From positions 378,377 through 442,376 of the forward strand of contig JAHFRU010000001.1 of assembly GCA_023266115.1 (NCBI GenBank): a stretch of DNA of 64,000 nt. Direction: 5' to 3'. The notes beneath the pieces were generated by a model. The model did no database searches. It saw only the letters and a list, made by a program, of their open reading frames with translations, and was not told the DNA's origin. Positions within the stretch are counted from its first letter, which is position 1; each line of letters begins with the position of its first letter. This DNA is from Gammaproteobacteria bacterium (GTDB lineage: Bacteria; Pseudomonadota; Gammaproteobacteria; VBWC01). The position numbers and the translations under genes were made by a program. Shown one piece after another: positions 29,902 to 50,527 of this stretch.

Positions 29902-30612
29902 TCAGTACTTGGGGTCGACCCCGGTGCCCTGTTCCTCGAGCGCGGTGGCGCGCTGGAAATGCTCGATTGCCTTGGCGCGCTTGCCTTTGATCTCATAGGA
30001 AAACCCGAGCGCGCGGTGCAATTTGGGAATATCGGGCCGCAGCTCGAGCGCCTGCTCAAACCAGTCGATGGCCCGGTCATGCTGTTTCAGGTTGTCGTGA
30101 CACACGCCGAGTTTGTAGCGAATCTTGTAGTCGTCGGTTTTTTTTGCGGCAGCGAGTTCGAGGTAGTCCGCGGCATTCTGGTAATCTTCCGCATCGAGAT
30201 AGGTGATGCCCAGGATCATCGCCGTTTTTGTGGAACGCGAGCTGGCTTCGTGCGCCTTTTTTAACAGGTCGATGCCATGGTCCGACTGGCCGACCTTGGT
30301 GTAGCACAGCCCCAGATGCACGAGTATTTCGGGGTCGTCGGGCATGTCCTTGAGCACTTTTTCCAGAATTGGAATGGCCCTTCTGTAAAACCCGCTGCGC
30401 GTATATTTGATGCCTTTTTCAAGGAACAATCCTTCGCGCAGGCTGCCATTGAACTGAAACGCGGCGCGAACACCCGACGCGACGTTGACCACGACGTGTT
30501 TGGCAACCCGCGCGCCATATTGCGAATACAACTCCACTCTGTCGAAGAGCGTCATTTCGCCGATGGGTGTTTCGTGGTGATCCGAACTCATATCGCCGAC
30601 CTCCTGGTGCAT
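29902..30612 (-). CDS. Second MamA-like TPR protein, upstream of and co-oriented with fbpABC
   Basis: Aligns with MamA of 43632-44282 over most of its length (YKLGVCHDNLKQHDRAIDWFEQALELRPDIPKLHRALGFSYEIKG vs YKLGVAYDHLKQHDKAIECFKAALELRPNESKLHRAIGFAYELQG). Confidence 0.85.
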   Translation of the reverse strand: MHQEVGDMSSDHHETPIGEMTLFDRVELYSQYGARVAKHVVVNVASGVRAAFQFNGSLREGLFLEKGIKYTRSGFYRRAIPILEKVLKDMPDDPEILVHLGLCYTKVGQSDHGIDLLKKAHEASSRSTKTAMILGITYLDAEDYQNAADYLELAAAKKTDDYKIRYKLGVCHDNLKQHDRAIDWFEQALELRPDIPKLHRALGFSYEIKGKRAKAIEHFQRATALEEQGTGVDPKY

Positions 30613-31530: not shown

Positions 31531-34230
31531 ATGGGAATGCTTAATTTCGGTATCTCCGACCGGTGCGGCCTGGAAACGCGCCGTTACCTCTACGTCCTCG
31601 GGGCAGCCGCGATTCTCATCGTGCTCGGCAGCTACTGGTACGTTAATTTCTTCAACAAGGGCATACATGTCGATCTGTCAACGAGGCCGGTGGCCAACGA
31701 TGCCGCCGGTGCTCAGGCGGCAATGCCGGCGTTCGCAATGCAAAACCAGATGCCCGCCAACGCGATGAATTCGATGCCGGGCATGGGCGATCCAATGCCC
31801 GCGTTTGCCAACGCGCAGCCGATGCCGAATGGCGGCGGCAATTTCCCGCAACAGCAAATGCAGCCGCGCTGGACCCCCGAGTCCCTGGCGCCGGCGGCCA
31901 GTATGCCGGTCGGCATTCCGCCCGGTGATCTGGCGATGCTGTCCACGAGCCGGTTTGCGCCGGTGGCGGAACAGATGCGTTTCAGCGTCGTGAATATCAA
32001 CGTTACGCGCTCGGCGTCGGTGGCGGCACAAGAGACTGTTGCGCCTGGTGCGGCATCGGCGGGCGTGCAGTTTACCAGCCCGGCAACCGGCACCGGCAAC
32101 GAAAGTATCGGCTCCGGCGTCATCGTCCACTCGGACGGTTATGTCATTACGAATTTTCACGTGGTGCGTGGTGCCACGGCAATCTACGTGACCGTATTCC
32201 ATGACTCGGGTACGCAGCGTTATCTCGCGCAGATGGTCAGGCTGGATGAAGGTATCGATCTCGCGCTGCTGAAAATAAATTCCCGGTTGCCGTTGCGAGC
32301 GGCAAAGCTAGCCGATAGCACGAAGATTCAGGTGGCGTCATCCGTGCTGGCGTTCGGCAGCCCGTTTGGTCTCGATCAGACGGTCAGTCGCGGCATTGTG
32401 TCGGGGCTGCGTAAATCGCTGACCATCGAGGGGGTCACCCACGGTGATTTGATTCAGACGGATGCCGCCGTGAATCAGGGCAACTCCGGCGGCCCGTTGG
32501 TGAATGATCAGGGCGAAGTGATCGGCATCAACACCGCGATATACACGCCGACCGGCGCATTCTCCGGTGTCGGCTTCGCAATTCCATCGAACCGGGTCAG
32601 GCAGTTCGTGCAGACCGAAGTCGTGTTGCCGGCGGTATTTCCGGACGCGATGGCGAGTCAGCAGCCGATGGCGCAGCTGGTGGCAATGCAGCAGATTGCG
32701 ATGCAACCGCCGGGTAACCAGGTCGGTCCGACGCTGGCGGCCGGGACAAGGTCGCCGCATACAGATGGCCGTGAGCGTATGGATTGCCAGATGTGTCATC
32801 AGATCGTTGGCGGCCAGCAAGCAGGCGCCAATGCGGTGGCGACGCAGCCGATGATGCAACAGATCGCGCGGCAAATCCGGCCAGACCCGGGCCCGGCGAT
32901 CATCGCCGGCACACCGGCGCCGCATACGGATGGCCGCGAGCGGATGAACTGCACGATCTGTCACCAGCTGCTTCCGGCGCAGCAGGGTATGAACCAGATC
33001 GGCATGTTGATGGGCACGCAACCGGTAATGCAGCAGATCGCGCGGCAAATCCGGCCAGACCCGGGCCCGGCGATCATCGCCGGCACACCGGCGCCGCATA
33101 CGGATGGCCGCGAGCGGATGAACTGCACGATCTGTCACCAGATGCTCCCGGCACAGCAGGGAATTAATCCGGGCGGCGTTAACGCGATGGCGATCGCGAT
33201 GCCCCAGTATCAGTTCGCGCGGCCGCCAGCGACGTTGGCAATGAACGTCAATCAGGACCGCCGTCTTGAAAACCAGAATGGCGCCATGGCGCCCGGCATG
33301 ATGGGCATGGGCCAGGGTATGGCCGGCCAGGACATGATTGGCATGAACATCAACCAGGATCGCCGTCTTGAGAACCAGAATGGCGGGATGCCCGGTATGG
33401 CGGGGATGAATCAGGGCGTGGCGGGCATGAACGTCAATCAGGACCTGCGCCCCGAAAACCGTGGCGTGGCGCCGAACGCGATGATGCCAGGCAACGGGCA
33501 GGGCATGATGATGGCGCCGCCGGTCCCGATGGGACAGGCAGGCAGCATGGCGCAGATGCCGGGAATGCCTATCGATACTCTGGCCGCCGCGGAACCGGAG
33601 GCGCGTGTGATACTCGGTGCAACGGTAATGCCGGTATCGCCGTTTCTGGCGACGCAAATAAATCAGCCGGTAGGCAAGGGCGTGTTTGTCAGTTCGGTCG
33701 TGCCGCGTTCGCTGGCCGAAACGTCCGGCCTTGTGGCGGGTGATATCATCCTGAAAATCGACGGAAAACGGGTTCGTACGCCGGATCAGCTGGCGCGTGA
33801 ACTGAACGCGCTGCAGAGCGGCGATCGGCCGCGGCTGAATATCGATCGGAACGGAGCGGGTCAGAATGTTCGGCTGGATATGATTGTGGCGAATGGCGAC
33901 CAGGTACCGGCGCCGCTACCGGGCCGGGGGCTTAGAAACGAAGTTAACTGGTTAGGGATGGAGCTTAAGGTTGTTCGTCAGCCTGTGGCCGGTGCGGTCG
34001 GCGGACTGCCGGGAGTCGGGCCGCTGATGGGGGCACAGGTCAAGGAGGTCCGCCGCGGTTCGCGTGCCATGCAGGCTGGCATACAGAAGCGGGATGTGGT
34101 TATTATGATCAACAATCAGCCGGTAGGGACTCCGGAGTTACTGGACCGCGCAATAGGCAATGCGGCGAACGAACCCAACGTATTGTTTAAACTTAACCGT
34201 AACAATCGAGAGATTTTTGTCACGCTTTGA
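31531..34230 (+). CDS. mamE: MamE-like HtrA protease with two PDZ domains and three magnetochrome CXXCH motifs
   Basis: TNFHVV, GIDLALLK, GNSGGPL triad motifs; CQMCH, CTICH, CTICH. Confidence 0.95.
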   Translation: MGMLNFGISDRCGLETRRYLYVLGAAAILIVLGSYWYVNFFNKGIHVDLSTRPVANDAAGAQAAMPAFAMQNQMPANAMNSMPGMGDPMPAFANAQPMPNGGGNFPQQQMQPRWTPESLAPAASMPVGIPPGDLAMLSTSRFAPVAEQMRFSVVNINVTRSASVAAQETVAPGAASAGVQFTSPATGTGNESIGSGVIVHSDGYVITNFHVVRGATAIYVTVFHDSGTQRYLAQMVRLDEGIDLALLKINSRLPLRAAKLADSTKIQVASSVLAFGSPFGLDQTVSRGIVSGLRKSLTIEGVTHGDLIQTDAAVNQGNSGGPLVNDQGEVIGINTAIYTPTGAFSGVGFAIPSNRVRQFVQTEVVLPAVFPDAMASQQPMAQLVAMQQIAMQPPGNQVGPTLAAGTRSPHTDGRERMDCQMCHQIVGGQQAGANAVATQPMMQQIARQIRPDPGPAIIAGTPAPHTDGRERMNCTICHQLLPAQQGMNQIGMLMGTQPVMQQIARQIRPDPGPAIIAGTPAPHTDGRERMNCTICHQMLPAQQGINPGGVNAMAIAMPQYQFARPPATLAMNVNQDRRLENQNGAMAPGMMGMGQGMAGQDMIGMNINQDRRLENQNGGMPGMAGMNQGVAGMNVNQDLRPENRGVAPNAMMPGNGQGMMMAPPVPMGQAGSMAQMPGMPIDTLAAAEPEARVILGATVMPVSPFLATQINQPVGKGVFVSSVVPRSLAETSGLVAGDIILKIDGKRVRTPDQLARELNALQSGDRPRLNIDRNGAGQNVRLDMIVANGDQVPAPLPGRGLRNEVNWLGMELKVVRQPVAGAVGGLPGVGPLMGAQVKEVRRGSRAMQAGIQKRDVVIMINNQPVGTPELLDRAIGNAANEPNVLFKLNRNNREIFVTL
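32854..33160 (+). repeat. Internal 174-bp-period tandem duplication in mamE (magnetochrome module)
   Basis: 32854-32986 and 33028-33160 nearly identical. Confidence 0.9.
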
Positions 34231-34299: not shown

Positions 34300-35892
34300 G
34301 TGGCTAATAAAAGGTCGCGGGCCGCATCCGCGAAGAAAAGAACAATCAAGGCTACGAAAAAGACAGCTCCGAAGGCCGCTCGCAAAAAGACGGTTGCCCG
34401 TACGTCGATGAAGAAGGCGAGGCCTGTCGCTTCCAGGGGCGCTGTTGCGAAGGCATCCGTCAGCGGAAAGCCGTCCGCGATCCTGAAGAATAAGGGCTCA
34501 GCGATCCAATCCAGAACTCTGCGCAGGACCACGGTCAACCGGGCCGATGTCGCGGCGCCTGAAGGATCTTGGCTAAGTGTATTTGACGCGTCACCGTGGG
34601 CCAATCCAAAACGTAGCGCGACGCCGTCTGTGCCGGCACCAAAAAAACCTGCTGGTCATGGCGGTAGCGAGCCCGGTTCGGCAACGCTAAAGAAAAAGGC
34701 CGCGAAAGCATCGGCCGCAGCATCCACAAAAAAGGCGGCTGCAACCGCGACGGCGGTAGTGTATATAGAGAAGCCTGACAGCAAGCATGTTCCGCAGGCG
34801 ATCGGCGCTTCCGCCGGCCAGAGTCTGGGCGAGATACTGAATGCATCGCCGTGGGCGAGTCGATTGAGAACGGGCGCGGCGTCCGCTGCCGCGCACGATA
34901 CACGCGGCGATCATGGGCGCCGTCCCGTTGGCGACAAGTCGGCCGTGTCCGCGGAGTTTTCCGATTTGATGGCGGCGTCGCCGTGGGCGACCCGGCCGAC
35001 GCCGGCGTTCAAGCGTCGCTCGATGCCGGAAAGCACTGGCGTGTCCCGCGCGGCCCCGCAGGTGATAGCTTCACGGGCGACATCGCCACATGTAACAGAT
35101 CCACCGACGGCGGTGCCGCCGCCGGCGCCGGTGGCGATATCGGCGAGCAGCACGAAACGTGGAGTAGAACCGCGGCGCAGCGCCGCCCCCGTTCCGATGA
35201 TGGCGCAGGACGCGTCGGTTTCACCGCCGCCGTTGCGCCGGATGCCGGATGTACAAGTTCAGGCTCCGTCGCGTCCGGCAGCGGACGCCCCCCAACAGGA
35301 ACGGCCGTCGTTCGCGCCGCGGCCAGCACCGGTTAGTCGTCCCGCTCGCGAGGTTCAGCGCGACGAACTGGGTGAGGCGATACGCGAGCTCGCCGGCGCG
35401 GTAGCCGAAAGTCAATTCGTGGTCAAGAAGCCGGATACCGGCGGAATCTCGGATGCCGACCGTCTCAAGATGCGGCTGGCGGAGCGGCAACGTGCGGTTT
35501 CGCGTGTCGCCGAGGAGCCGTCGCCACGATTTCGGCCGAAGCAACGGGCGCCGATACCGAAGCGCCCCGTCGTTACCGGTGCTGCGGAGGTTGGCAGTCA
35601 GCCGCGCGTGCCATTCGATGCCGGTGCAACGCCGCAGGCAACCGTAGCAGCCAGCCGGGCAACGGCAGCAACATCCTCCTCGAGTAGTGAGGCGGCGCAG
35701 AAAAAAAAACTGGAGAAAACGATACTGATCGAGGGCTTGGGGAGAGGCGTTTTCAACGCGCTGGGCAACGGGGTGGGCCGGATAGTCCACGTCGGAATGC
35801 AGTCCGTATCGGGAATCGCGTTGGGCGCGAAAGATGGCGCGAGATTGGTCAGTGGATTCTTCAAGGAAAAAAAATCGACGACGACTGAGTAG
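34300..35892 (+). CDS. Protein at the mamJ position: Lys/Ala-rich basic N-terminus, three 'ASPWA' repeats, Gly-rich amphipathic C-terminus; unknown
   Basis: GTG start with GGGAGGT upstream; FDASPWANP, LNASPWASR, MAASPWATR; lies between mamE and mamK. Confidence 0.75.
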   Translation: MANKRSRAASAKKRTIKATKKTAPKAARKKTVARTSMKKARPVASRGAVAKASVSGKPSAILKNKGSAIQSRTLRRTTVNRADVAAPEGSWLSVFDASPWANPKRSATPSVPAPKKPAGHGGSEPGSATLKKKAAKASAAASTKKAAATATAVVYIEKPDSKHVPQAIGASAGQSLGEILNASPWASRLRTGAASAAAHDTRGDHGRRPVGDKSAVSAEFSDLMAASPWATRPTPAFKRRSMPESTGVSRAAPQVIASRATSPHVTDPPTAVPPPAPVAISASSTKRGVEPRRSAAPVPMMAQDASVSPPPLRRMPDVQVQAPSRPAADAPQQERPSFAPRPAPVSRPAREVQRDELGEAIRELAGAVAESQFVVKKPDTGGISDADRLKMRLAERQRAVSRVAEEPSPRFRPKQRAPIPKRPVVTGAAEVGSQPRVPFDAGATPQATVAASRATAATSSSSSEAAQKKKLEKTILIEGLGRGVFNALGNGVGRIVHVGMQSVSGIALGAKDGARLVSGFFKEKKSTTTE

Positions 35893-49460: not shown

Positions 49461-50207
49461 ATGGCGGCAGATAATATCGCGGTGGCCGGTGCCGGAATGG
49501 TGCGTAGAGAACTGGAGAACGAGGCAAACCGTCAGGCCATGGGTGCTAACGCCATGGCTCGCGGTGGTGATGCTGCCCAGGGTAATGCGATGGCCGGCAA
49601 CGCCGAGAACGTACGCGAAGCCGCTGAAGGCAAGGCCGTGGTCGGCAAGGCGATGGGCGGGAATGCCGAGAATGCCCGTGAAGTCGTCGAAGGCAAGGCG
49701 CTGGCGGGCAAGGCGCTGGGTGGCAAGGGTGCTGCTGCCGGAAAGGCCGCCGCCGGTAAAGGCGCGGCATGCCAGGGCGCGGGAATGACGACGATGAAAG
49801 GTGGTGCAGGCGTGAACGCAGCTGCCGGCAAGGGCAGCGCACTGGGCATGAATATCACGTCGACCGAAGCGACCGCCGGTGCTTCCAAGGCGGCGAGTTC
49901 GGGTATGACGGCCGCGGGCAAGAGCGCCGCATCCAAGGGTGCAGTCGCCGCCAAGACCGCCGTATCTTCCGGTGGTGCTACCTTGAAGACCGCCGCGGCT
50001 GGTACGATCTGGACCGGCAAGGGCGCCAGTCTGGGCCTGGGTCTCGGACTTGGCATCTGGGGCCCGATCATTCTCGGTACGGTAGGGGCGGCCGCCGTTT
50101 ACGGTTATGTCAGAAGCCGTAAGTCGGAAGAAATGCAGAATGAGGAAGAGTCCGAGTTGCAGTCGGCTCTGGATATGGAAGACCAGCTGGTGAGGACACA
50201 GGAATGA
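49461..50207 (+). CDS. mms6: Mms6/MamD-like magnetite crystal-associated protein
   Basis: C-terminus GTIWTGKGASLGLGLGLGIWGPIILGTVGAAAVYGYVRSRKSEEMQNEEESELQSALDMED matches the Mms6 pattern; GGAGGTG Shine-Dalgarno. Confidence 0.88.
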   Translation: MAADNIAVAGAGMVRRELENEANRQAMGANAMARGGDAAQGNAMAGNAENVREAAEGKAVVGKAMGGNAENAREVVEGKALAGKALGGKGAAAGKAAAGKGAACQGAGMTTMKGGAGVNAAAGKGSALGMNITSTEATAGASKAASSGMTAAGKSAASKGAVAAKTAVSSGGATLKTAAAGTIWTGKGASLGLGLGLGIWGPIILGTVGAAAVYGYVRSRKSEEMQNEEESELQSALDMEDQLVRTQE

Positions 50208-50527
50208 ATACAGCAGTGTTGCATACCACGGGCACGTTGAGATCACGGATACTCGCGTCGTTCAGTTACCTGGGCGTCCTTTGCTTTGTGCCATTGATCA
50301 TTAATGGTGAAGATGAGTACGTGTATTTCCACGCCAAGCAGGGTCTGATTATCTGGATGTGGGGCGTGTTAGCGGCGTTCTCCCTCGTCATCCCGGGCCT
50401 TGGCAAGGTGTTCTTCAGTTTCTCGATGCTCGCCGTGCTGCTGTTGTCGGTGGTTGGCCTGGTTTCTGTCATGCTCGACAAGGCGTGGAAGTTGCCGGTG
50501 GTCTATCCGCTGGCTTCCAGAATCTGA
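50204..50527 (+). CDS. mmsF: MmsF/MamF-like (DUF4870) membrane protein
   Basis: SYLGVLCFVPLIINGEDEYVYFHAKQGLIIWMWGVLAAFSLVIPGLGK. Confidence 0.9.
   Translation: MNTAVLHTTGTLRSRILASFSYLGVLCFVPLIINGEDEYVYFHAKQGLIIWMWGVLAAFSLVIPGLGKVFFSFSMLAVLLLSVVGLVSVMLDKAWKLPVVYPLASRI

Follow-up and report, generated by a model that had tools for sequence, protein, structure and literature searches.

A basic protein encoded between mamE and mamK in a gammaproteobacterium is probably a divergent MamJ-type adaptor

In the window, the 64,000-nucleotide stretch of gammaproteobacterial DNA analysed here, we found that the 530-aa protein encoded between mamE and mamK is, with a probability of roughly 0.8, a divergent MamJ-type adaptor that would be anchored to the magnetosome by its C-terminus and would meet MamK with a multivalent SPW end. 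MamJ is the tether of magnetosomes to the actin-like MamK filament, and its relatives have been reported as confined to Magnetospirillum. By its slot, its C-terminal domain (C-domain) and its SPW motifs, the 530-aa protein belongs to the broad MamJ family; it is not a standard MamJ, as it misses the NCBIfam model NF040987 and has no acidic domain.

The gene and its place in the magnetosome gene cluster

The window holds a large, complete magnetosome gene cluster of a gammaproteobacterium with mamI, mamE, the 530-aa ORF, mamK, mamL, mamM, mamN, mamO, mamP, mamA, mamQ, mamR, mamB, mamS, mamT, genes for a CDF transporter, an Mms6-like protein and a MamF-like protein, and mamH; the mamL match is weak and several other cluster genes score below the curated cut-offs. 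An initial annotation, made from the sequence alone, had placed the ORF in the mamJ slot between mamE and mamK, and the ORF coordinates and the NCBIfam matches of the two neighbours bear this out. The ORF begins with a GTG start that is preceded by GGGAGGT, a ribosome-binding-like stretch. The features discussed below are:

31531..34230, + strand: mamE, upstream neighbour; best NCBIfam match NF040960 at 599 bits, below the cut-off of 800
34300..35892, + strand: putative mamJ-family gene, 530 aa, pI 11.4; from the mamE/mamK slot, C-domain profiles and dN/dS
34300..34557, + strand: H1-like K/R/A-rich basic tail, residues 1-86; weakly constrained, dN/dS 0.63
34570..34602, + strand: SPW motif 1, WLSVFDASPWA, residues 91-101; aligns with IWASLLESSPWS of MamJ
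34822..34857, + strand: SPW motif 2, SLGEILNASPWA, residues 175-186; from a motif scan
34954..34989, + strand: SPW motif 3, EFSDLMAASPWA, residues 219-230; from a motif scan
35452..35511, + strand: helix of residues 385-404; modelled with more confidence than any other part, pLDDT 82-89
35719..35835, + strand: MamJ-type C-terminal domain, IEGLGRGVFNALGNGVGRIVHVG, residues 474-512; putative equivalent of the MamJ magnetosome-membrane helix
35952..37001, + strand: mamK, downstream neighbour and proposed partner filament; NF040964 at 481.7 bits, cut-off 400
50204..50527, + strand: MamF/MmsF-like protein, 107 aa, candidate targeting factor for the C-domain; directly after the Mms6-like gene

Upstream of mamI and on the opposite strand, 29902-30612 (- strand) encodes a second MamA-like TPR protein (179 bits, just below the MamA cut-off of 200). 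In the window MamE (31531-34230), there are three CxxCH (magnetochrome-like) repeats that closely resemble one another, and the long middle is rich in Met, Gln, Pro and Gly.

The 530-aa ORF encodes a real, selected protein, because an orthologue that is 86% identical lies in the same place in the sister genome (L024, a gammaproteobacterial MAG and the only other genome of the order examined) and dN/dS between the two genes is low (0.32 overall). When dN/dS was calculated by region, it was 0.11 in the SPW blocks, 0.12 in residues 351-410, 0.19 in the C-terminal 60 residues and 0.63 in the basic tail, with each of these values resting on small counts. Neither Pfam nor NCBIfam gave a family for the protein at E up to 1, its own genome held no second copy of the gene, and we found no orthologue outside the genus among 59 related genomes. 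The reading of the gene as an orphan, with an orthologue in the sister genome only, was overturned by the mamK-anchored survey described below.

In the full AlphaFold model, the protein is mostly disordered (mean pLDDT 51), in agreement with the disordered, linker-like middle expected by the initial annotation. Helices are predicted just before SPW 1 and SPW 2 (both short), at residues 385-404 and at the C-terminus (residues 481-507), the last with low confidence (pLDDT 50-55). When the C-terminal part was modelled alone (39 sequences), it formed one long helix with a mean pLDDT of 62. The conserved core of this part is a moderately hydrophobic, Gly-rich helix with a maximum Kyte-Doolittle value of 1.1 over 19 residues, which is less hydrophobic than a classical transmembrane helix; where the C-terminus had been called Gly-rich and amphipathic, the Gly-rich helix stands and "amphipathic" is only partly apt. 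The helix of residues 385-404 is among the most constrained parts of the protein, and we recognised no counterpart in its relatives.

SPW motifs, linker charge and basic tail

To place the protein among its relatives, we used a survey anchored on mamK that covered 80 loci from 85,488 species genomes and related class genomes, and we took as the slot protein at each locus the ORF ending just upstream of mamK. A search for homologues in other magnetosome clusters had been suggested at the outset, and the survey found a slot family across the 80 mamK loci.

The three ASPWA motifs quoted in the initial annotation are present, with SPW at residues 98, 183 and 227, each within ASPWA, and all three copies are kept in the sister genome; at least two ASPWA occurred in 0 of 20,000 shuffles. 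The hydrophobic-SPW motif is present in three copies, and even one copy was seen in only 19 of 20,000 shuffles. Among complete alphaproteobacterial slot proteins, 17 of 19 carry W-x-x-[LVI]-[LF]-x-x-SPW or a hydrophobic-SPW variant of it that is a little more relaxed, where shuffles of alphaproteobacterial slot proteins give an SPW expectation of 3%. In this form, the motif was found in 0 of 26 Magnetococcales slot proteins and in neither of the 2 other complete gammaproteobacterial ones, and nearly all Magnetococcales slot proteins lack SPW as such. Over the whole slot family, PW is only modestly enriched (28 observed, 15.4 expected), as the motif does not extend beyond Alphaproteobacteria and the window's genus.

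MAFFT placed SPW copy 1 of the window protein on the MamJ copy, and in the MamJ of L040 SPW lies at residue 56. When a profile of the N-terminal SPW region was used alone, the sister protein was found at E 3.8 and the window protein was not among the matches, the motif being short; because this profile is not significant for the window's genus, we argue the SPW relationship from motif counts and position, not from E-values. In the MamK tree, the window's genus lies on the alphaproteobacterial side (SH-aLRT 99), and the best match of the window MamE outside the genus is alphaproteobacterial, so that the motif matches the history of the genes. The MamK tree neither shows nor rejects a strict clade that joins Alphaproteobacteria and the window lineage (AU p 0.135), and the SPW motif shared with Alphaproteobacteria may have come either by transfer or by shared ancestry.

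The SPW motifs had been proposed as MamK-binding SLiMs. They are the best candidate for a MamK-facing motif, and their position and conservation are what suggest the binding itself. A real, if minority, possibility is that the protein is a MamJ homologue whose SPW motifs bind a different partner on the magnetosome or at the cell pole (MamA, a MamY-like scaffold or the protein itself, for instance), with MamK contacted elsewhere, for example through the helix of residues 385-404. There are mamK-bearing relatives that lack SPW, the region of this helix is as constrained as the SPW blocks (dN/dS 0.12) and is the best modelled, and two regions of MamJ, N- and C-terminal, take part in the MamK interaction according to a review (PMC3905215). 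However, SPW sits in the N-terminal interaction domain of MamJ (residues 23-81; PMC10653835) and is the most conserved part of MamJ's N-terminal region. If SPW is the MamK contact, the SPW-less slot proteins of Magnetococcales and other Gammaproteobacteria must use something else.

In charge, the 530-aa protein is opposite in sign to MamJ (net charge +9.6 per 100 aa; pI 11.4 as compared to 4.1-4.8), a comparison that the initial annotation had called for. By pI, which spans 4.1 to 11.4, 29 of the slot proteins are acidic and 18 basic; the MamK tree requires at least 7 acidic/basic switches, and L027, an alphaproteobacterial slot protein with SPW, has a pI of 10.1. Because slot charge varies to this extent, a basic MamJ-type protein is unusual only next to Magnetospirillum, and because charge is not conserved, the linker is probably a spacer. 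The central acidic repetitive (CAR) domain and the acidic pI of strict MamJ are absent from the 530-aa protein, and the CAR domain is reported to be dispensable for chain assembly (PMC3905215).

The H1-like Lys/Ala N-terminus described by the initial annotation is present, with 24 K/R and no D/E in residues 1-75. We consider it improbable that this tail makes the protein a nucleoid tether, binding DNA and anchoring magnetosomes to the chromosome instead of or besides MamK. PhaF and AlgP have a basic Lys/Ala tail. PhaF, PhaM and AlgP are organelle tethers, as the 530-aa protein would be, and are reported to anchor PHB and polyphosphate granules to the chromosome (PMC13052382), and Lys/Ala-rich stretches are also found in the L027 and L074 slot proteins. 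However, the tail is among the least constrained parts of the protein, has no Pfam match and is missing from most relatives. We found no sequence match to PhaF, PhaM or AlgP and, by Pfam or NCBIfam at E up to 1, no histone H1-like or PhaF-AlgP family domain in the 530-aa protein; its gene adjoins mamK, an actin-like filament gene, and not a granule gene or a DNA-binding system.

The C-terminal domain

A C-terminal signature, PVExLxxG....LGxxVGGVV, recurs in the slot proteins of Alphaproteobacteria, Magnetococcales, other Gammaproteobacteria and Mariprofundus. The Magnetospirillum-type slot proteins L030, L037 and L040 (the three tested) are MamJ by NCBIfam NF040987. This MamJ equivalog (cut-off 100 bits) gave no match to the 530-aa protein even at E 1, nor to the sister protein, and the overall identity of the 530-aa protein to MamJs is about 17-25%, mostly in the linker.

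When a profile was built from 47 slot C-termini, none of them from the window's genus, it found the window protein at E 2.1e-7 (30.1 bits) and the sister protein at E 1.5e-9, as compared to 10.7 bits for the best of 6000 shuffles; all other window ORFs, among them the Gly-rich Mms6-like protein, stayed within the range of the shuffles. Because the slot pieces were chosen by a permissive motif pattern, the profile is fitted to relatives, although sequences of the window's genus had no part in it. With profiles from single groups, the window protein was found at E 5.4e-8 (Magnetococcales), 3.4e-4 (other Gammaproteobacteria) and 9.6e-4 (Alphaproteobacteria). A profile of Magnetospirillum-type MamJ C-termini alone found the sister protein at E 5e-4 and the window protein at 0.056, and it also found slot proteins of other classes. 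By these profiles, the domain of residues 474-512 is homologous to the C-terminal domain of MamJ, and a homologous, fast-evolving family fills the slot in Alphaproteobacteria, Magnetococcales and other Gammaproteobacteria.

Across whole genomes, we found the C-domain at E<1e-5 in 5 of 387 gammaproteobacterial genomes, exactly those with mamK above 475 bits. In the phylum, it was found below about 5e-6 in 47 of 399 genomes, a figure that is partly circular because some of the groups searched had also supplied slot proteins for the profile; 46 of the 47 have mamK over the cut-off, and in 44 the C-domain is followed on the same strand by mamK at a distance of 114-639 bp. The near absence of the C-domain from genomes without mamK is not circular.

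The domain was also seen at other positions. In seven Magnetococcales loci (L046, L047, L048, L051, L052, L053 and L055), a second C-domain protein of 107-152 aa is encoded directly after mamK, which is flanked there on both sides by C-domain proteins. At the start of the L029, L034 and L038 loci, about 6 kb upstream of mamK, lies a second paralogue of alphaproteobacterial type, which has APW and QPW motifs and PVEDLLGGV in its C-terminus. The slot proteins of L045 (Nitrospinota) and L061 (Nitrospirota) are basic and have a VESLGAG-type motif like the MamJ C-domain, with a C-domain match at E 9e-4 to 7e-3 in L045 and a weak one in L061; these two perhaps extend the MamJ-type family beyond Pseudomonadota.

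The initial annotation had taken the protein for an analogous connector of different origin, and had named homology to MamJ as one of the findings that would speak against this. Profiles never trained on this lineage find the C-domain, which shows such homology, whereas loss of the motif in orthologues, another such finding, is not seen in the sister genome; an unrelated basic protein that was recruited to the slot and converged on a tether is now very unlikely. The absence of an NCBIfam or Pfam match, the charge opposite to that of MamJ and the different length would fit an independent origin. However, the protein has both short MamJ modules, in MamJ's order and in its slot, the residues around SPW follow the W-x-x-[LVI]-[LF]-x-x-SPW frame of the genuine MamJs L030, L037 and L040, and the position of MamK and the MamE match on the alphaproteobacterial side are in line with the shared SPW. 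Least probable is that the C-domain match reflects convergence of Gly-rich GxxxG membrane helices and not homology: the match covers a short, Gly-rich segment of 29-45 residues, and MamD and Mms5 have Gly-rich C-terminal helices with low similarity to MamJ (PMC11628618), but the signature has non-Gly positions (PVE-x-L, N-A-L-G-D), shuffles of the same composition never exceeded 10.7 bits, the Gly-rich Mms6-like protein of the window is unmatched and the genome-wide matches cluster upstream of mamK.

Proposed function and relation to known tethers

The 530-aa protein most likely works as MamJ does. It is the C-terminus of MamJ (334-426, helix 359-379) that directs the tether into the magnetosome membrane; this part also interacts with the MamF-like proteins MmsF and MmxF, and chains do not form without it (PMC11628618). 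By homology to this tested part of MamJ, the Gly-rich C-terminal helix (about 474-507) would insert into the magnetosome membrane, which lends support to the C-terminal membrane anchor that the initial annotation had suggested. The MamF/MmsF-like protein of 50204-50527 may help this insertion; it is 49% identical to the MamF-like protein encoded beside mamK in L007/L091 and scores below the Pfam DUF4870 cut-off. Another MamF candidate in the same genome (C5:147717), which is over the DUF4870 cut-off, was dropped for its non-magnetosome neighbourhood, the protein of 50204-50527 being the better one. The long, disordered, charged middle would serve as a flexible spacer, and the N-terminal hydrophobic-SPW motifs, judging from their position and conservation, would attach to MamK filaments or to a partner that is bound to MamK. 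With three SPW copies as compared to one, a single molecule could grip several MamK subunits or filaments.

MamJ of Magnetospirillum (NF040987; L030, L037 and L040) has in common with the 530-aa protein the slot between mamE and mamK, an N-terminal W-x-x-LL-x-x-SPW, a long, disordered, repetitive middle and a C-terminal PVEDL-Gly-rich membrane-targeting helix. In contrast to MamJ, the 530-aa protein is basic, has three SPW copies and an H1-like tail, lacks the acidic repeat domain and the Cys-containing tail, and falls below the NF040987 model. The MamJ-like protein of Rhodovastum G2-11 (PMC9938234) and Mg-1g50 of Magnetovibrio MV-1 (PMC10653835) are likewise barely recognisable slot or mamK-upstream proteins, and both are reported to replace MamJ functionally in M. 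gryphiswaldense; these two, which we compared by description only, are alphaproteobacterial, and that of G2-11 is strongly acidic (pI 3.3). Magnetococcales slot proteins (e.g., L054, L062 and L093; cf. maq1, PMC6783814) share the slot and the C-domain, and many are basic; unlike the 530-aa protein, they have no SPW and usually end in a second helix that is hydrophobic and Gly-rich. In the UR-1 paper, mamJ was not found in Etaproteobacteria (Magnetococcales), the link between MamK and magnetosomes there was left unclear, and a gene in the mamJ position without homology was named in Ca. Magnetaquicoccaceae (PMC6783814). In the literature searched (subscription papers and preprints were outside the search), we found no paper that unites the slot proteins into one family.

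An extended form of the MamJ-type reading, in which the protein is a charge-reversed, multivalent MamJ whose three SPW modules cross-link MamK or occupy several subunits and whose H1-like tail is a second anchor (to the nucleoid or to an anionic membrane), is speculative and rather doubtful. If it is true, the family would be near universal in magnetotactic Pseudomonadota, the linker charge would be free to invert and the two short modules alone would be conserved.

The protein encoded just ahead of mamK carries the MamJ C-domain at most of the loci that we examined in Magnetococcales, Gammaproteobacteria and Alphaproteobacteria, and these slot proteins are named, testable candidate tethers for most magnetotactic Pseudomonadota. 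Taken together, these data leave two short modules as the putative functional core of MamJ and suggest that the acidic character that defined MamJ is not essential to the family.
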